Shown here: positions 30,198 through 40,898 of the stretch, one piece after another
Numbering within the stretch: position 1 is the stretch's first letter
How the letters are laid out: each line of letters opens with the position of its first letter
Origin: Acidobacteriaceae bacterium
GTDB lineage: Bacteria; Acidobacteriota; Terriglobia; Terriglobales; Acidobacteriaceae
DNA: 40,898 nt
Assembly (NCBI GenBank): GCA_003139795.1
Contig: PLGM01000408.1
Span: 1-40,898 of the forward strand
Reading direction: 5' to 3'
Program-made: the position numbers and the translations under genes
The notes under the pieces: model-generated
Database searches by the model: none
Told to the model about the DNA's origin: nothing
The model's input: the letters and a program-made list of their open reading frames with translations, nothing else

Positions 30198-30476
30198 ATG
30201 TCTACCACCGTTGAGATCGACAAAGCCGGCCGCGTCGTCGTCCCCAAAAAGTTCCGCGATGCCCTCCACCTCACCCCCGGCACCCGCCTCAAAATCGACC
30301 GCACCGGCGACACGCTGACGCTGGAGCAGGATTTCCCTGAACCCAAGCTGGAGATGATCGACGGATTATGGGTGATGACCGACGGGCCTCCAGCGGATAT
30401 CGATATTCCTAAGTTGATTCGCCAGGGTTACGAGGAGCGCCACAAGAGAATCATGGAAGGCAGTGGGCTGGAGTGA
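30198..30476 (+). CDS. vapB: AbrB/MazE-family antitoxin (VapB)
   Basis: The 92-residue protein opens with the swapped-hairpin DNA-binding domain STTVEIDKAGRVVVPKKFRD, then LHLTPGTRLKIDRTGDTLTL (residues 2-45), as in AbrB, MazE and VapB. The C-terminal part (DGLWVMTDGPPADIDIPKLI, then RQGYEERHKR) should wrap around the toxin. It binds and neutralises the PIN toxin encoded next and represses the operon via the CCATT/AATGG sites. Its end overlaps the toxin start by four bases (GTGA). The mRNA appears to be leaderless. Confidence 0.9.
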   Translation: MSTTVEIDKAGRVVVPKKFRDALHLTPGTRLKIDRTGDTLTLEQDFPEPKLEMIDGLWVMTDGPPADIDIPKLIRQGYEERHKRIMEGSGLE

Positions 30477-30898
30477 GAGTTTTTCTGGATACTTCTGTGC
30501 TGGTCGCCTCAGCGCGGAAATCGGACCAGCGTTATCAGGTCAGCCGCGGCGTGCTGATGCGGTGCCATCCCCAGGACTCATTCTGCGCCGCCCTTACCTT
30601 GGCCGAACTCTACGCATCCCTCACCGGCATGCGTCCCCCCAACCGGTTTAGGCCGGAGCAGGCGATCCTCGTCATTGACCAAGTCAAAGCCAGCCTGCAA
30701 TGCGTCACCCTTACCGCCGAAGAAGCATTCCAGACAGTCCACCGCACGGCGACTTTGAAGCTACCGGGAGGAATTATCTATGATGCCTTGCTGATGGCAT
30801 GCGCGCGAAAAGTGAATTCTGAGCGCATCTACACTTGGAACGAAGAGCACTTCCGTATGGTCGCCCCCGACCTGGCGAACCGGATCGTTACGCCGTAA
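30473..30898 (+). CDS. vapC: PIN-domain ribonuclease toxin (VapC)
   Basis: The 141-residue protein is a PIN domain: FLDTSVLVASA (first acidic residue Asp6), ALTLAELYASLTG (Glu near 44), GGIIYDALLMACARK (Asp near 103) and a final YTWNEEHFRMVAPD. This gives the acidic cluster that binds Mg2+ or Mn2+ for RNA cleavage. VapC toxins usually cut tRNA or rRNA. The start is a GTG sharing GTGA with the vapB stop codon, so translation is coupled. The four-acid set seems complete, so the toxin is probably active. Transposase remnants follow directly after it. Confidence 0.9.
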   Translation: MRVFLDTSVLVASARKSDQRYQVSRGVLMRCHPQDSFCAALTLAELYASLTGMRPPNRFRPEQAILVIDQVKASLQCVTLTAEEAFQTVHRTATLKLPGGIIYDALLMACARKVNSERIYTWNEEHFRMVAPDLANRIVTP

Positions 30899-31822: not shown

Positions 31823-31939
31823 GTTTACAACTCCATCCGCCCCCACTCCAGCCTGAAAGCGCTCACGCCCGACAGGTATACTTCAACCGCCTGCCGGAGT
31901 CCCTGGCACCCTGAACCAAAAGCAAGAACTTCCACTTAA
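31823..31939 (+). pseudogene. C-terminal scrap of an IS3-family transposase (OrfB)
   Basis: A short stretch reads VYNSIRPHSSLKALTPDRYT, the last conserved block of IS3-family integrase-type transposases (YNxxRPHSSLxxxTP). It is followed by a region resembling an IS right end (CTGTCCGAACTACCGGGAC at 31954-31972). The catalytic core is gone. The bases 31575-31822 between this and the IS1380 remnant hold no recognisable gene and probably include decayed IS sequence. Confidence 0.65.
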
Positions 31940-32052
31940 GGAAAAAGCAAAAACTGTCCGAACTACCGGGACCACCTCTCGTGATCGGATCGCTCGACGC
32001 GCATCCAGGACAGGTTCGTAAGTTCGAGACCAACCACAAAGAGGAACAAATC

Positions 32053-35027: not shown

Positions 35028-36398
35028 TAGTACTGCAGTTGTAACTAATGGGCAAGAAGCAGAAGCTGTTGTTTTCGAAAGTGAAAGATGCGTGCCAGGA
35101 ATTGGTGATGTCTTCGCCAGTCAGACCAATGCAGAAGATGATCCAGGCCGTGCCAGCCGCTGCGCAGCACGGAAGCGAGCAAATGCCGGATTTCCGGTAC
35201 GCTGAGGGGAACCTTCTTGGCGGAAGGTTTTTTTCTCCCCGGCGCGCAGCACCGCCAGAACGGCCAGAGCCAGCATGGCGAGGGTGATGTGCCGGTACCA
35301 GCCCTGCCAATGCCGGACTTCGTAATGATCCAGTCCGCACTCGCCCTTGGCCATCTGAAAGGCGCTCTCGATGGCCCAGCGCCGTCCGGCCACGGCCACC
35401 AGGGTTTTCAGAGTGCTTTGCTTTTTGCGGGCATAGGTGAAATAGAAGGCGTACTCGGGTTCGGTCTCCAGGCTGCGCCGCACCAGCAGAGCTTGTTCCC
35501 AACTCTCGCGCTCCGCCCAGGGCATCAGGGCCCAATCGTAGAGCCTTTCCCCCTTGGCGCCTGAGCCTGCCGCAAGACGTTTCCAGGCCCGTTTGGGCAA
35601 CTGGTTGGCGATTTCGTCGACGCGGTGCTGGCGCATATCCTGCCGCCATAAGCGCTGGTCCGCGGCTACCGCCAACACATAGGGCTGGCGGCGCTCTTCC
35701 AGCCAGCGGCGTAGCTTGCTGTCCCGGCCATAGACTTCATCTCCGGCCACCCAGCCGCAGGACACACCGGACTGGAAGGCTCGCTCCAGCATCTGCCGAC
35801 CCAACATCGGCTTGGTCTGAAACTCCATCTCGTCGGGAATGCCGGCCGCCTGGCGGCGTGCGCCGTCTTCGGCCCAACTCTGGGGAAGATACAACTCGCG
35901 ATCCAGCAGCGCATAACCCCGCTCGCCGGCATAACCGAGAAACACGCCGATCTGGCTGTTTTCGATCCGCCCTGCCGTACCGCTGTACTGTCGCTGCACC
36001 CCGGCAGAATGCGTGCCCTTCTTCAGAAATCCGGTCTCGTCCAGAATCAGAACCGCATCCGGGCTGCCCAGCTTGTCCTGCACATACTCGCTCAGCCGCG
36101 CCTGCAGCGCATCGGCGTCCCAGCGTGCCCGGCCCAGCAAATATTGCATCCCGTAAGGTGACGCGTCGCCCACACACTCGGCCACCTGCCAGCCGTTTTT
36201 GCGCTCGCAGCCGCTCAACAGACCTTCCAGATAGGCCAGACTGCGTTCCCGCACTTCGGATCGCGCAAACAGATCCCCCATCCGCTGATGCGCGCGCATC
36301 AACTCGCCCTTCCAACCTCGGATCGTCTTCTCCATCGCCTACGCGGAGAGCCTGCCTGAGCGCCTTCAGTCTATCATTTAGTTACAACTGTAGTACTA
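35028..36398. mobile_element. IS701-family insertion sequence, about 1.37 kb
   Basis: The ends are inverted repeats: TAGTACTGCAGTTGTAACTA on the left (35028-35047) and its near-exact complement on the right (36379-36398), with one mismatch over 21 bases. The single gene inside is a full-length transposase on the minus strand. Flanking bases are TTAG on the left and CTAG on the right if one counts the outer TAG, so a perfect target duplication is not seen. The unrelated broken genes on the two sides suggest recombination after insertion. Confidence 0.8.
35121..36335 (-). CDS. IS701-family transposase
   Basis: The 404-residue DDE transposase has an N-terminal DNA-binding part (GDLFARSEVRERSLAYLEGL, then SGCERKNGWQVAECVGDASP). 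The first catalytic Asp is in AVLILDETGFLKKGTHSAGV, in the family signature with RQYSGTAGRIENSQIGVFLG. The second is in GWVAGDEVYGRDSKLR, and the Glu in RRWAIESAFQMAKGECGLDH. Length and motifs match the IS701 family. No stop codon or frameshift interrupts it, so it may still be active. The last 30 residues (FARFRAAQRLARPGSS) are Arg-rich. Confidence 0.88.
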   Translation of the reverse strand: MEKTIRGWKGELMRAHQRMGDLFARSEVRERSLAYLEGLLSGCERKNGWQVAECVGDASPYGMQYLLGRARWDADALQARLSEYVQDKLGSPDAVLILDETGFLKKGTHSAGVQRQYSGTAGRIENSQIGVFLGYAGERGYALLDRELYLPQSWAEDGARRQAAGIPDEMEFQTKPMLGRQMLERAFQSGVSCGWVAGDEVYGRDSKLRRWLEERRQPYVLAVAADQRLWRQDMRQHRVDEIANQLPKRAWKRLAAGSGAKGERLYDWALMPWAERESWEQALLVRRSLETEPEYAFYFTYARKKQSTLKTLVAVAGRRWAIESAFQMAKGECGLDHYEVRHWQGWYRHITLAMLALAVLAVLRAGEKKTFRQEGSPQRTGNPAFARFRAAQRLARPGSSSALV

Positions 36399-36650
36399 GA
36401 GTCCCGTGGCCACGCCCGCGAAGGCGGCCTGGGTGGCAAAGCCGATCGCAGCGCAAAAGAAGAGAGTGTCCAGATTAAGCACGATCGCAACGGAAGCATT
36501 CTTGGCCGTCAGATCAAGAGCCGTGATGGTTTCCCACTTGACTCCGGCGGGCGTGTAAGTGCTGGCCGCATCGGTTTGGCCTATATAGGCCAGACTGTCG
36601 TCGACATAGGCATTATTACGGGAACTCGGTGCTAACAGAGGTTGCCACAA
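36396..36650 (-). pseudogene. Truncated unknown ORF at the IS701 right junction
   Basis: On the minus strand a frame of 84 residues (TTG start) reads LAPSSRNNAYVDDSLAYIGQ, then TPAGVKWETITALDL, then a hydrophobic end AIVLNLDTLFFCAAIGFATQ. Its stop codon is formed by the end of the IS element, so the C-terminus is lost. It lies 8 bases downstream of the frame that follows the Rep-like gene and could be the next gene of that operon. The hydrophobic tail suggests a membrane segment. I do not recognise it. Confidence 0.4.
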
Positions 36651-36657
36651 CCCATTC

Positions 36658-36954
36658 TCAACGAACTACCAGATTATCGCCGAATGCGCGGTTCTTCAAG
36701 TGGGCTGGAACGTAGGGGTCTTCCGCGGCGGCCGCAATGAGATCGGATGGCCCGTGATACTGCATCTGGTCAAGCTTGCCGGTTAGAACAAGGCCGTCCT
36801 GCTGTGTTGCTAATTGGCGCAAGGTAGGCAGGACGATTCTCACCCTGCTGAGTTGCAAACCGTGCACGGGTGCGGTTCTTGGTGTGATTCGGGAAACTCG
36901 TCTGCTTGATACGAGGGTTAAAGAGTTCCAGCCACCTGAAGGACCAGTCGCCAT
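36658..36954 (-). CDS. Open +1 frame overlapping the end of the Rep-like gene
   Basis: This 98-codon frame overlaps the last 185 bases of the Rep-like gene in the +1 frame and continues 112 bases beyond it. Its second half reads as ordinary protein (IVLPTLRQLATQQDGLVLTG, then QMQYHGPSDLIAAAAEDPYV, then HLKNRAFGDNLVVR). The end of the Rep frame over the same bases (TAGRPCSNRQA) looks less natural. It may be the true C-terminus of Rep after a one-base deletion, a product of programmed +1 frameshifting, or a separate small gene starting at ATG 36954, which lacks a Shine-Dalgarno site. Confidence 0.4.
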   Translation of the reverse strand: MATGPSGGWNSLTLVSSRRVSRITPRTAPVHGLQLSRVRIVLPTLRQLATQQDGLVLTGKLDQMQYHGPSDLIAAAAEDPYVPAHLKNRAFGDNLVVR

Positions 36955-37471
36955 TGCAATCGTTGATCGACTTCAAGCAATACTCCGGCCCCAAGCAGTT
37001 GTGTTTGTAGGATTCCACCACCACGCTGTCGTCTTCTGGGTCATCGTCTCCCAGGACGTTGTCGCTGGCCAGGGCGTCTTCACCCACGAGACGGACGCCG
37101 GCGGCGTCATCCTCCTGCCGCCGCCGGGCGGGGCGAGACACCAAATCCCGCCAGGTGTCCTCAACCAGCATCTTGGGAATGTCGACCATCGAGGTCACCA
37201 ACAGATGGAAATGCCAGGGAACCTCCATACCGTGAGACCGGGGCTTCCGCTCCTTGCCGGCAACGAAGCAGATCTGGGTCCGCAGAGTCCTCTCGATGAT
37301 ATTGAGCCATTCCTTCAACTTCGCGTCGGCGGTCTCGCTCCTGACGTTCCAAGGGAACGTCAGGGTGATGAACCACTGCCAAGCGACGGGCCGGAACCAC
37401 TTTGCAGCGGCGTCGACCACCAGGCGATCCCGCTCGGGGATCAGGTTGTACCAGAGGTGCTTCTCACTCAT
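36770..37471 (-). CDS. HUH-endonuclease replication initiator-like protein (Rep)
   Basis: The 233-residue protein shows the three ordered motifs of rolling-circle Rep proteins. Motif I is FITLTF (residues 34-39), the HUH motif is WHFHLL (His87 and His89), and motif III is GPEYCLKSIN (Tyr164 and Lys167, YxxK). Such enzymes nick one strand at an origin and stay bound through the tyrosine. A very acidic insert (residues 119-149, with GDDDPEDDS) separates the HUH and Tyr motifs. Start 37471 is chosen because AGGAG lies 7 bases upstream; it shares ATGA with the end of the preceding ORF. No helicase domain is present. I cannot name the closest family; inovirus/plasmid Rep or a Y1-type transposase are options. 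The natural C-terminus may lie in the +1 frame. Confidence 0.65.
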   Translation of the reverse strand: MSEKHLWYNLIPERDRLVVDAAAKWFRPVAWQWFITLTFPWNVRSETADAKLKEWLNIIERTLRTQICFVAGKERKPRSHGMEVPWHFHLLVTSMVDIPKMLVEDTWRDLVSRPARRRQEDDAAGVRLVGEDALASDNVLGDDDPEDDSVVVESYKHNCLGPEYCLKSINDCNGDWSFRWLELFNPRIKQTSFPNHTKNRTRARFATQQGENRPAYLAPISNTAGRPCSNRQA

Positions 37472-37842
37472 ATCCATGCTCCTGTTCTGCGGCCGGCTCC
37501 AGGTTGTCTGGTCACTTTCATGACCTCCCGAGTCGGCCTGGGTTGTGTAGGCACACGTTGTCCTATGCCCATCTGAGGTCGTTGGAGGGATCGGGTATTC
37601 CACCGCTCCGACGGGATCAACAGCACCCTAAGAGCCCCTCCGGCCAGTTCCCCCGACAGTGCGTATTCGCGCCGTGATTCAAGGAAACCCGCCAACCGGC
37701 TGATCGAGCAGGTTCCAAATGGACACCTGCGTCGAACATGTACCCAGTCTGAAGCACTGCTGATGTCTACCAAAGCTTCGAGGTCGTCAGCTTCCTCAAC
37801 CGCGCCAATGCCGCTGATGTGCGTGTCTATCGATGAGGGCAT
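37468..37842 (-). CDS. Unknown Arg-rich ORF translationally coupled to the Rep-like gene
   Basis: The 124-residue frame (if begun at ATG 37842; GTG 37851 and TTG 37773 are alternatives) reads VEEADDLEALVDISSASDWV, then RRRCPFGTCSISRLAGFLES, then GELAGGALRVLLIPSERW. It ends in a basic tail rich in Arg, Gln and Pro. Its stop TGA lies inside the Rep start (ATGA), which is the best evidence that it is a real gene. The start overlaps the excisionase-like gene by up to about 50 bases, and no Shine-Dalgarno site is evident, so the N-terminus is uncertain. No family is recognised. Confidence 0.45.
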   Translation of the reverse strand: MPSSIDTHISGIGAVEEADDLEALVDISSASDWVHVRRRCPFGTCSISRLAGFLESRREYALSGELAGGALRVLLIPSERWNTRSLQRPQMGIGQRVPTQPRPTREVMKVTRQPGAGRRTGAWI

Positions 37843-37996
37843 CGAGTTCACGTGAATCGAACCGGATCTCGCCTGCAATGCGGATGGGGTTGATCTGACC
37901 GGTCTTGACGAGCCAGTCGATCTGATCCTGGCTGAGGTGAAGTACGGCGGGGAGTTCCGTCGGTTGGTAGAGCCGGCGGTCCGACTGAATGGGCAT
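37796..37996 (-). CDS. Excisionase-like (AlpA/MerR-type) helix-turn-helix protein
   Basis: The 66-residue protein reads RRLYQPTELPAVLHLSQDQI, then DWLVKTGQINPIRIAGEIRF, then DSRELDALIDRH. This is the winged-helix layout of small excisionase/AlpA DNA-binding proteins (LxxxLxVSxxxIxxLxxxGxLpxxrIxgxxrF). They act as Xis factors or as control proteins of plasmids and phages. AGGAGG is 4 bases before the ATG; a GTG 7 codons earlier is less likely. It is the first gene of the three-gene Rep operon. Confidence 0.7.
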   Translation of the reverse strand: MPIQSDRRLYQPTELPAVLHLSQDQIDWLVKTGQINPIRIAGEIRFDSRELDALIDRHAHQRHWRG

Positions 37997-38015
37997 ACTG
38001 CCTCCTGTAAAGAAC

Positions 38016-38114
38016 ACTGCATCAGGAAGGTCAAGTAGCCAAAGCTATGGCCCGCAAATCAGTGCGCGGCCGAATGAGATGGGTACTTCGCCTTCCATCT
38101 GCAGACTGCATCAG
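38016..38114. repeat. Direct 10-bp repeats upstream of the Rep operon
   Basis: ACTGCATCAG occurs at 38016-38025 and again at 38105-38114, 89 bases apart, in the region between the Rep operon and the divergent regulator. Two copies are too few to call iterons, but binding sites for the excisionase-like protein or an origin element are possible. Confidence 0.35.
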
Positions 38115-38243
38115 AGGCACCGATCTGCCAAAGGCTCGATCAAAAATGGCAATGATTGACTCAGGGCAGGTAAGCACATTTGCTGCCCTCGATCTGCCGT
38201 TCGTCTGGCTAATACGGGCTTATCTGTAAACAGTTGCCAAGAA

Positions 38244-38303
38244 GCAACAATATGAATCCACTGGACTTGCTAGCCATTTGCAGGCCAAATCAGGTATTGT
38301 TGC
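38244..38303. promoter_or_regulatory. 8-bp inverted repeat before the winged-helix regulator gene
   Basis: GCAACAAT (38244-38251) and ATTGTTGC (38296-38303) are exact reverse complements 44 bases apart. The second ends 3 bases before the regulator ATG. An additional GTTGC at 38233-38237 forms a smaller dyad with the first. These are candidate operator sites for the regulator encoded next. Confidence 0.4.
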
Positions 38304-38306
38304 GAA

Positions 38307-38690
38307 ATGGCGACCAATGACCCCATCAAGAAGTTTGCCGAGCAGGCACTCCAAGTAGAACGTGTGCTTGGAGAGCACGGCTTGAGTGGCAACGCCGCCA
38401 GGGTACTCTACATTCTCGACGCAGCGAGAAGGCTCGAAGGGGTTACACAGAAGCAGGTCGTGGATGGAACATATCTCCCGAAGGATGTCGTCAGCAAATT
38501 AGTCCGTTCGCTTGTGGGGGCAGGACTGTTGACGCAGGAGCGCGAGGGGGGGAACGCGCGGATCAAGCGGCTGGCTATGACCGACTCGGGAAGGGCACTG
38601 TTGTCGCGGGTGAAGGCGGCGCTACAACCGCCCCGTCCCGCGAAGCAGGAGCCCGAGCAAAGACACAGGCGATTGTCATTCTTCGATTGA
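38307..38690 (+). CDS. MarR-like winged-helix regulator
   Basis: The 127-residue protein has a helix-rich N-terminus (FAEQALQVERVLGEHGLSGN). A winged-helix core follows (ARVLYILDAARRLEGVTQKQ, then YLPKDVVSKLVRSLVGAGLL, then REGGNARIKRLAMTDSGRAL) matching MarR/PadR-type regulators. The C-terminal tail is basic and Pro-rich. It is divergent from the Rep operon and about 310 bases from its first gene, so control of that operon is plausible. No Shine-Dalgarno site is evident; the start follows an inverted repeat half-site. Confidence 0.7.
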   Translation: MATNDPIKKFAEQALQVERVLGEHGLSGNAARVLYILDAARRLEGVTQKQVVDGTYLPKDVVSKLVRSLVGAGLLTQEREGGNARIKRLAMTDSGRALLSRVKAALQPPRPAKQEPEQRHRRLSFFD

Positions 38691-38694
38691 ACAG

Positions 38695-39108
38695 TTGCGC
38701 GTTAGCAACCGTCAGGCGAATTGTCCCTTCCGGCGTGCTGCGCTCCATTTGGGGCCGCAACACCATCGGCTCCATCTACCGCGGCCGGAATCCCCCGAGA
38801 GCGATAGGTTCTCGCACCCAGCCGACCACCAAGATCCAACCGAGCCTGCAGAGTCACTCGAGTTCCCGATTCGCGACGAATCGGCGGAGCCAACACATTA
38901 CCAGAACCCGGAGTTTCGAGACCATTCCGAGCCTCCAGAGTATCCTCGGGGACCAACTTACGACGGTGACCAAGCCAGTCATGGGTCCGAAATTCTTGCC
39001 GTTCGCCCAGTTCCTGCCGAACCCCAGCAGGCTCCAGAGTGGCCCGAAGGGGCACCCCTATGGTCGGCTGGTCTGAGGGTGGGCCACCCGCCTTCGGAAT
39101 CTATCTAG
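38695..39108 (+). CDS. Doubtful Pro/Glu/His-rich ORF
   Basis: The 137-codon frame begins with TTG 5 bases after the regulator stop codon. It is rich in Pro, Glu, Asp and His (SHPADHQDPTEPAESLEFPI, then THYQNPEFRDHSEPPEYPRG, then VRPVPAEPQQAPEWPEG). The region is unusual in being open in at least three frames at once (also +38687-39076 and -38702-39055). An acidic, disordered protein is possible, but so is the absence of any gene. No Shine-Dalgarno sequence and no recognised relatives. Confidence 0.25.
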   Translation: MRVSNRQANCPFRRAALHLGPQHHRLHLPRPESPESDRFSHPADHQDPTEPAESLEFPIRDESAEPTHYQNPEFRDHSEPPEYPRGPTYDGDQASHGSEILAVRPVPAEPQQAPEWPEGAPLWSAGLRVGHPPSESI

Positions 39109-40898
39109 GCCAGATTCTTCACCTGTGGATAGCAGGTGAATTCTTCATCAGCGACTTGCCAGTATGGGATAAACTTCTGCCCGGGATTTCCGCGCACAGA
39201 GAAGTGCAGCGGCGATCCCTCAATGGGATGGAAGTACTCGGATAGATCCTCCAGATCATGTCCAGAATCGAGCGAAAGAACGACATTGGAAGAACCCACT
39301 GCTGCAAGCAGAATCGGCCCGTACTCAACTGAGCAGCGAGTGCGGCCTTGGATCTGGTCCAGCCCGGCATAACGCCTGACGCGAATCGCCGCCGGCAATG
39401 AGAACTCAATCCTGTCGCCATCTGCCCATTTGCGGTTGAGGACCAGGTAGCGGCCAGGCTCACTTGAACCCGCTGTTTGCCCGTTGATAGACACAGTCAT
39501 TTCCTTGGCTGACCAAGAGGGTACTCTTATCCGGATGTTGGCCTCCGTTGGCATCTCAGTTTTTACAGTGGCCTCCACCTTGGTCGTAAATGGGAATTGC
39601 GTTTTCACGGTCAGCTCGATGGGCCGATCATTGTGTGTCCACCGGACTGTCGAGGGCTCGTAGAGATGCACGAACAACCCATCGGGGGCAATCGAATAGA
39701 TATGCTCAGGCAAAGATCCGATAAGCCGGGTTCCCTGTCCTTCGCAGCATGTGTTTTCGTGCGTTGCTTTCTCTTTCTTGCCTTCAAGGATCGTGTGGTA
39801 ACGAAGTCCAATCCCATGATCCTGATTGCCGAGACCTATGTTAAAGATGGACTTTTCGATCTCAGCTGCAAAACGCTCATCCTCGGGATTCAGCTGCTGA
39901 AAGCGCTGGCTGAGAAACACCCAAAAGCTGTTGCCGCAGAGTTCGCCCAGTTTCTGTGACAGGTAATTGCTGTCGGGAGGATCGTTCTCAAATTCGATGA
40001 TCGAAATGCTACCGCCCGCCTGCTGCCAATGCGCACGATAAAGCTCCCAGGCGCCGAGCACTGCATCAAAATAGATCTGATGGCCGGTAATCAGGTACAT
40101 GTCGAGGTAAGCTTCAAGATCGGTGAGCAGATAGCAGTGCGGGCGGTCGTACGGATACTGCCACACCTGTGCCTCTTCTCGTCTCGCTAGCCCTCGCAGC
40201 CATGCATCTTCCTGGTAATACTGCTGGATGACCTGGGCATCTTTTGGAACACCGAAAGAGCTTGTGCCAACGCGGGTATTTGCCACCATTCCCTGGCCTC
40301 CCTGGATTGCTCCACGCAGCATTTCAGGCAGGAAGGACTGGCGATTAAACCAGTCATAGTATCCGCGTAGCATCGGCAGTGCTTTCTCATTCCCGCAGTA
40401 TGCAGCCTCAAGGAGTCCGTGCGTCAGCCAGGCACGCGTATAGGCTGCACGCTCGGAGTAGAGAATTGTGTCTTGCGGATATGCCATGATGTAGCCATTC
40501 GGCTCACGACATTCTGCAATCCCATCTACAACTGAATCGAGCCTTTGCTGAAGTTCGGGATGATGAATCCACCGAAGCGTATTGCCGGCGCCCATAAGGA
40601 AGCGGCCGGCATTCGATCCGGCTAGATCCTCCTCCCAGAACTTTTGCGAGCCCGTCGGTTTGAAATCCTTCACCTTTCCAGTGCGCTCATAAAACTGGCG
40701 CAGAAGATCTGCCGTTGAGTAGGAGGTCAGCAGATACTCGATGTTGTTTTCCATAGCTTTCTGGAAAACCCCACCGTGAAGGGTCACCCCCGACCTGGGA
40801 ACCTGTGCCTTGAACTTCGGCGGCGTCCACGTTGCAGGGCCGGTTACGGCGTCTGGATTATCATGAAGAATCTCTTCACTTGAGAGTACCGAGTTCTG
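39105..40898 (-). CDS. GH127-like (DUF1680) glycoside hydrolase, N-terminus beyond the window
   Basis: The frame is open from the right edge of the window to 39105 (about 597 residues seen), so the start lies outside. An (alpha/alpha)-barrel part shows AGRFLMGAGNTLRWIHHPEL, EPNGYIMAYPQD and AYTRAWLTHGLLEAA. Next comes the zinc/cysteine catalytic site of the GH127 family, with ELCGNSFW (Glu-x-Cys) and then THENTCCEGQGTRL (Cys-Cys). The C-terminal beta domain has RIRVPSWSAKEMTVSINGQT and VEYGPILLAAVG. GH127 enzymes remove beta-L-arabinofuranose from plant glycoproteins and use a cysteine nucleophile; this divergent member may cut another sugar. The part seen has no signal peptide. Confidence 0.85.
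   Translation of the reverse strand, partial: QNSVLSSEEILHDNPDAVTGPATWTPPKFKAQVPRSGVTLHGGVFQKAMENNIEYLLTSYSTADLLRQFYERTGKVKDFKPTGSQKFWEEDLAGSNAGRFLMGAGNTLRWIHHPELQQRLDSVVDGIAECREPNGYIMAYPQDTILYSERAAYTRAWLTHGLLEAAYCGNEKALPMLRGYYDWFNRQSFLPEMLRGAIQGGQGMVANTRVGTSSFGVPKDAQVIQQYYQEDAWLRGLARREEAQVWQYPYDRPHCYLLTDLEAYLDMYLITGHQIYFDAVLGAWELYRAHWQQAGGSISIIEFENDPPDSNYLSQKLGELCGNSFWVFLSQRFQQLNPEDERFAAEIEKSIFNIGLGNQDHGIGLRYHTILEGKKEKATHENTCCEGQGTRLIGSLPEHIYSIAPDGLFVHLYEPSTVRWTHNDRPIELTVKTQFPFTTKVEATVKTEMPTEANIRIRVPSWSAKEMTVSINGQTAGSSEPGRYLVLNRKWADGDRIEFSLPAAIRVRRYAGLDQIQGRTRCSVEYGPILLAAVGSSNVVLSLDSGHDLEDLSEYFHPIEGSPLHFSVRGNPGQKFIPYWQVADEEFTCYPQVKNLA

Follow-up and report, generated by a model that had tools for sequence, protein, structure and literature searches.

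The module described here is situated close to one end of a 40.9-kb contig from a soil bacterium of the Acidobacteriaceae, with an IS701 copy on one side and a GH127 gene on the other; the window that we analysed is the whole of this stretch, 40,898 nucleotides in length. The module has three coding genes, rep, hth and marR, whose codon-position GC patterns are of the coding type. The nearest named relative that turned up in the genome collection was PLOI01000140.1, a MAG from the Acidobacteriaceae. The features of the locus and its flanks are as follows.

35121..36335, minus strand: IS701-family transposase gene, a flank outside the module; its conserved end reaches about 36399
36770..37471, minus strand: rep, gene for a putative HUH endonuclease or Rep-like protein of 233 aa (basis: invariant motif residues, pN/pS and PF23343 matches in its family)
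37022..37120, minus strand: acidic-insert segment of rep (about residues 118-150), between the HUH and Tyr motifs
37472..37745, no strand: non-coding leader 5′ of rep, similar to the fen_408/G017 leader
37796..38017, minus strand: hth, gene for a small HTH_17/AlpA-like, Xis/RDF-like protein; GTG start as called, with an ATG at 37996
38018..38306, no strand: divergent promoter region in the hth/marR interval, holding palindrome 1 and part of palindrome 2
38233..38248, no strand: palindrome 1, operator-like, GTTGCCAAGAAGCAAC, exact
38299..38314, no strand: palindrome 2, operator-like, GTTGCGAAATGGCGAC, one mismatch, overlapping the marR start codon
38307..38690, plus strand: marR, gene for a MarR-family repressor of 127 aa
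38694..38709, no strand: palindrome 3, operator-like, GTTGCGCGTTAGCAAC, exact, directly 3′ of the marR stop codon
39105..40787, minus strand: GH127 gene, chromosomal, a flank outside the module; it has a different 3′ neighbour in relatives

On the IS701 side, the sequence from 36400 to 36770 was unmatched in relatives except for very short stretches. On the other side, about 410 bp separate marR from the GH127 stop codon (38691-39104); this interval holds no recognisable gene, and AGCCTCCAGAGT-like short repeats occur in it at 38843, 38930 and 39029. Farther away on the contig, an ordinary VapBC-like pair is found at 30198-30898 (plus strand), where a MazE/AbrB-type antitoxin gene overlaps a PIN-domain toxin gene, and an IS fragment consisting of a transposase C-terminal tail (rve_3-like) lies at 31841-31979.

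What kind of protein does rep encode? The initial annotation had pointed to HUH motifs in this ORF, and they are present in Rep order: FITLTF (motif I), HFH at residues 87-89 and YCLK, which contains Tyr164 and Lys167. W31, T38, H87, H89, W107, Y164 and K167 are invariant both in a profile made from four homologues and in a wider alignment of seven relatives. Homologues lacking the His or Tyr residues were to be sought as evidence against an HUH identity; none was present among the full-length homologues aligned, which favours this identity. In a genome from the same genus (G017), rep is truncated by an IS fragment, 80% identical to the one at 31841-31979 of the window, and stops short of the Tyr. 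In a comparison of 111 codons with the same-genus relative, pS was 0.73 and pN was 0.20; because synonymous sites are close to saturation, the pN/pS ratios of both rep and marR (see below) are only indicative. The changes at the three codon positions numbered 34, 18 and 55, the third position being dominant, and the GC contents at these positions of rep are 0.58, 0.44 and 0.75. To judge from its pN and pS, rep appears to be under purifying selection.

The window protein scored 17.3 bits against the Pfam family PF23343 (REP_ORF2-G2P), below the gathering cut-off of 27.8. This family was matched by six of the seven Rep family members scanned (best E 7.1e-10), and a kinship with PF23343 is therefore likely, although we do not claim membership. 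Motif I, the HUH motif and the Tyr region are common to Rep and to PF23343 and the microvirus-type replication initiators (phrog_3584 and phrog_3419), from which the window Rep differs in carrying the acidic insert and in having no virus genes noticed nearby. A structure prediction was built on a two-sequence alignment, and the resulting model was poor (mean pLDDT 41.7). Its core, residues 32-115, was modelled as beta-alpha-beta-beta-alpha with the HUH motif on the third strand. AAV/parvovirus Rep and microvirus Rep were among the top structural matches to this poor model, but unrelated ferredoxin-like folds ranked equally with them; the named viral hits near the top of the Foldseek results were mostly microvirus-type Rep/VP4. 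A Y1/IS200-type transposase was considered and rejected, in that no Pfam match was obtained and the YxxK-type motif argues for Rep. Taken at the level of its motifs, the protein is a putative HUH endonuclease with a single catalytic Tyr.

The acidic insert of about 30 residues, noted initially between the HUH and Tyr motifs of the window Rep, is indeed there. It is absent or much shorter in the Rep relatives that reach this far, and among the relatives compared it is a feature of the window copy only. A GC-rich hairpin (an inverted repeat at 37098-37127) overlaps the DNA of the insert; its folding z score is -2.2, with 4 of 200 shuffled sequences folding as well. This hairpin corresponds to a position only a few bases from the point at which the IS fragment cuts the G017 rep. 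The hairpin may mark a hotspot or belong to an origin, or its position may be coincidental.

Upstream of rep, the initial annotation had proposed an 'Arg-rich ORF' (37468-38034) as a gene coupled to rep by an ATGA overlap. We reject this ORF as a gene. It shares its strand with hth, which it overlaps; the GC contents at its three codon positions are flat and of the non-coding type (0.62, 0.58 and 0.55, versus the rep values above), and in comparison with a relative, single-base indels shift its frame while mismatches fall evenly on the three positions (15, 15 and 14) with no three-base periodicity. A 46-aa match of the ORF to G017 was equalled by other frames, because it is the DNA itself that is conserved. 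The ATGA overlap exists, but it couples rep to nothing.

What lies there instead is the non-coding leader of rep. Its identity to the fen_408/G017 leader is about 50-90% in sliding windows, and the segment 37534-37696 is 74% identical to G017 over 163 nt. Because the leader is conserved to this degree even though about 73% of the rep synonymous sites differ, it is probably constrained. A promoter or an origin region is possible, and the leader is a candidate for either. Its folding was no better than that of shuffled sequences, and Rfam gave no match across 36300-39110. CTTGATA, which we take to be the phiX174/pC194-type nick motif, occurs once, at 36905 inside rep, and is not near rep in most relatives; we do not claim it as an origin. 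No recognisable origin was found in the window.

The other two genes had been described as an AlpA/Xis-like protein and a divergent winged-helix regulator, and both descriptions agree with our searches. The former matched HTH_17 in Pfam with an E value of 1.9e-4, a match too weak to reach the Pfam cut-off, and an excisionase PHROG with an E value of 2.6e-4. The latter contains a MarR_2 domain (E 1.4e-10, 41.6 bits versus a cut-off of 27). Among 399 genomes of the class, a single marR homologue was found besides the window's own, in the genome G414, where it lies in the same island as a Rep. The two MarR proteins share 52% aa identity, with a pS of 0.67 and a pN of 0.32; such values suggest that marR is under purifying selection, with synonymous sites near saturation. 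The window HTH protein specifically matches the G414 HTH that adjoins MarR and stands at the head of the recombinase operon there (phmmer E 3.3e-10 among five proteins; 53 aa aligned at 37.7% identity).

A palindrome, GTTGC-N6-GCAAC, is present in three copies around marR in the window, two exact and one with a single mismatch, and G414 likewise has three copies around its marR, all exact and longer-armed. The two loci agree in the placement of the copies: one lies in the divergent promoter region, one over the marR start codon and one a few bases past the marR stop codon. For three exact copies within 890 bp, the Poisson probability is about 1.5e-10, a value computed after the motif had been noticed. 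Across the whole window genome (6.3 Mb), 13 sites were counted, versus 8 for a reversed control pattern. The recurrence of the same three positions in both loci suggests repressor operators, and on sequence grounds the likeliest reading of the palindromes is that they are putative MarR operators serving autoregulation, although palindrome 3 has no clear job under this reading. Might they instead be core sites of recombinases, with marR as a mobile or invertible cassette? The G414 palindromes have arms of 7-8 bp around a 6-bp centre and so look like core sites of tyrosine recombinases, copies lie on both sides of marR in both loci, and three tyrosine recombinases adjoin the palindromes of G414. 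We nevertheless hold this to be distinctly unlikely. In both loci, two of the palindromes, across the start codon of marR and within the divergent promoter region, lie where a regulator of its own gene would typically bind; TTGC/GCAA half-sites would fit MarR-type operators; and the window keeps its palindromes though no recombinase is near.

A search with the Rep profile found the family in 10 of the 399 class genomes and, at a stricter cut-off, in 3 of 297 genomes sampled across the phylum, the window genome being included in both counts. The neighbourhoods of the main Rep relatives were read. These relatives are chromosomal, and several lie near integrases. The most informative is G414, whose Rep is on a single 6.3-Mb contig. 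Within 7 kb, the order there is MarR, divergent from HTH, Int, Int, HTH, Int, HTH, Rep; that is, a MarR homologous to that of the window faces away from a minus-strand series comprising the homologue of the window HTH, two tyrosine recombinases, an HTH_17 gene, a third recombinase, a third HTH gene (HTH_17) and Rep. The initial annotation had called for a search for the gene set in other genomes, and in this integrase-bearing locus the homologues of all three window genes are co-located. Because a marR homologue is found in no genome of the 399 other than G414 and that of the window, chance alone is unlikely to have brought it into one locus with a Rep homologue. The G414 locus is flanked by two genes:

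L015 4341-6452, minus strand, and L048 767-2773, minus strand: reverse transcriptase (RT) of the UG19/DRT group and DNA methyltransferase

Elsewhere, an integrase adjoins Rep in G052 and G294. The neighbours of Rep are an HTH_17-like gene, an integrase and a RepB-type primase in G429, and XRE, HTH_17 and integrase genes in G144, where the opposite side is occupied by a type III restriction-modification pair. An integrase next to xis and rep is thus present in G414, G429 and G144, and it is not present in the window. In G374, no integrase was noticed in the stretch that was read, and G030 has a Rep relic with a stop codon. G017 retains just the leader and the truncated rep and has neither HTH nor MarR, so rep, hth and marR do not necessarily move together. 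Two relatives are placed differently. The Rep relative of G175 is inside a prophage, and in G234 the HUH Rep domain starts a 651-aa ORF (L014 7371-9326, minus strand) that has no Pfam match; by eye, this ORF has a Walker-A-like stretch and a C-terminal part resembling RecA/DnaB-like ATPases.

The window itself holds much less. A tblastn search with all of the island proteins recovered only rep, hth and marR in the window, and neither a recombinase nor a remnant of one. Among the window ORFs, no coat, morphogenesis-ATPase, Zot-like or transfer genes were noticed, nor was an FtsK/SpoIIIE-type Tra, Pfam scans having covered part of these ORFs. The attachment-site duplication that had been suggested was not found beyond chance-level repeats. 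The strongest direct-repeat pair close to the module's ends, CTATATAGGCCAGA and CTATCTAGGCCAGA at 36581 and 39101, was rejected because it is at chance level for 3 kb (about 0.7 expected by our own estimate). No empty site could be identified through the GH127 orthologues, because their 3′ neighbours differ. The GH127 stop codon is 1.8 kb from the contig end at 40898, and missing parts of the element may therefore lie beyond it.

How should this locus be interpreted? In our judgement it is probably the control and replication-initiation piece of an acidobacterial integrative element, left without its recombinases. The relatives of the gene set sit on integrated mobile elements, which makes a leftover fragment of one the most likely identity, rather than an independent plasmid or virus. 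Weighing against this reading are the lack of any further island gene detected in the window, recombinases included, the incomplete gene set of G017, the absence of att repeats and of an empty site, the different placement of Rep in G234 and G175, and the fact that no sigma-70-type promoter match was obtained. The initial annotation had proposed an undescribed rolling-circle replicon, and only part of this proposal survives. The genes do look like control genes of a mobile element, as indicated by the conservation of motifs and by their co-occurrence in the integrase-bearing locus of G414, but a replicon of this kind is not borne out: the window lacks a detectable recombinase, a recognisable origin and an att repeat, and no gene for transfer or for a coat was noticed in it. 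A rolling-circle replicon integrated at 36.4-39.1 kb that is small, intact and self-sufficient (a plasmid, inovirus or satellite) would account for an intact Rep ORF under selection that is found with a Xis-like HTH and a repressor within about 2 kb, and the conserved non-coding leader could hold its origin. We consider it quite unlikely, however, given the deficits just listed, given that the only other MarR-bearing locus is a chromosomal integrase island, and given that searches of phage records (50,697), plasmid records (72,556) and viral contigs (IMG/VR scans) turned up no relative.

The maintenance of Rep under selection without adjoining recombinases is also what would be expected if the protein were domesticated or non-replicative, for example a chromosomal nickase, a relaxase-like mobilisation initiator or a defence or counter-defence nuclease, under regulation by MarR and HTH. 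Relatives near restriction-modification and RT genes, and one that forms part of a 651-aa ORF extended by a long additional C-terminal region, are in keeping with this idea. Yet the sporadic distribution (about 10 of 399 genomes), the degenerate copies and the IS-truncated relative are signs of mobile-element turnover and not of a fixed function, and PADLOC gave no match for Rep; we therefore regard such a role as unlikely. Under the reading that we prefer, that of a piece of an integrative element, the window copy is probably a small remnant and, with no recombinases in reach, no longer mobile by itself; its preserved Rep could be usable in trans.

In an intact element of this type, Rep, by analogy with the initiators of rolling-circle replication, would nick one strand of the excised circle and so start rolling-circle copying, and the HTH_17 protein might act as an excision factor or an activator. 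From the position and conservation of the palindromes, MarR would bind GTTGC-N6-GCAAC both across the marR start codon and in the promoter region common to marR and hth, and bound MarR would silence marR as well as the leftward HTH-(rep) transcript until induction.

The locus is of a known kind, an HUH Rep and Xis-like control module of an integrative element, and it is a new instance in Acidobacteria. In actinomycete integrative and conjugative elements (AICEs) such as pSAM2, an int-xis-repSA operon has been reported (PMC3218068). The likeness to AICEs (PMC3218068) consists in integration, in a control module combining a tyrosine integrase, a small Xis and an HUH rolling-circle initiator, and in a dedicated regulator. 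On the other hand, the phylum and the Rep family are different, the window copy has no integrase, an FtsK-like Tra was not noticed in the window or in the related loci examined, and the regulator is a MarR here and Pra/KorSA there. The best reading, by this analogy, is that the window control piece may work like the rep-xis module of actinomycete ICEs. The G414 locus also recalls GInts, in that three tyrosine recombinases, small HTH proteins and cargo lie beside the homologous MarR/HTH pair. In GInts, however, the three recombinase CDSs are consecutive (ginABC), whereas G414 has an HTH gene in between and then an HUH Rep; and the window holds no recombinases at all. IncC-dependent SGI1 and other replicating genomic islands, which are integrated and replicate in an excised form (PMC7433901 and PMC7826253), serve only as a precedent for replicating integrated islands.

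A literature search on Acidobacteria, rolling circle, integrase and mobile genetic element returned no paper having such elements as its subject, as judged by title. We tentatively raise the possibility, itself rather doubtful, of an undescribed lineage of acidobacterial integrative elements, in which MarR and three operators would control an HTH/recombinase operon ending in a divergent HUH Rep, excision would be coupled to rolling-circle copying, and defence genes would be carried as cargo; the window would then be a reduced version that keeps the regulation and a Rep with a copy-specific acidic insert. Acidobacteria are very abundant soil bacteria, and their mobile elements are poorly described. 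A divergent family of Rep proteins linked with integrases, with Xis-like proteins and with phage-defence cargo would be a marker with which to find and bound such islands, and the conserved MarR palindromes constitute a directly testable switch.
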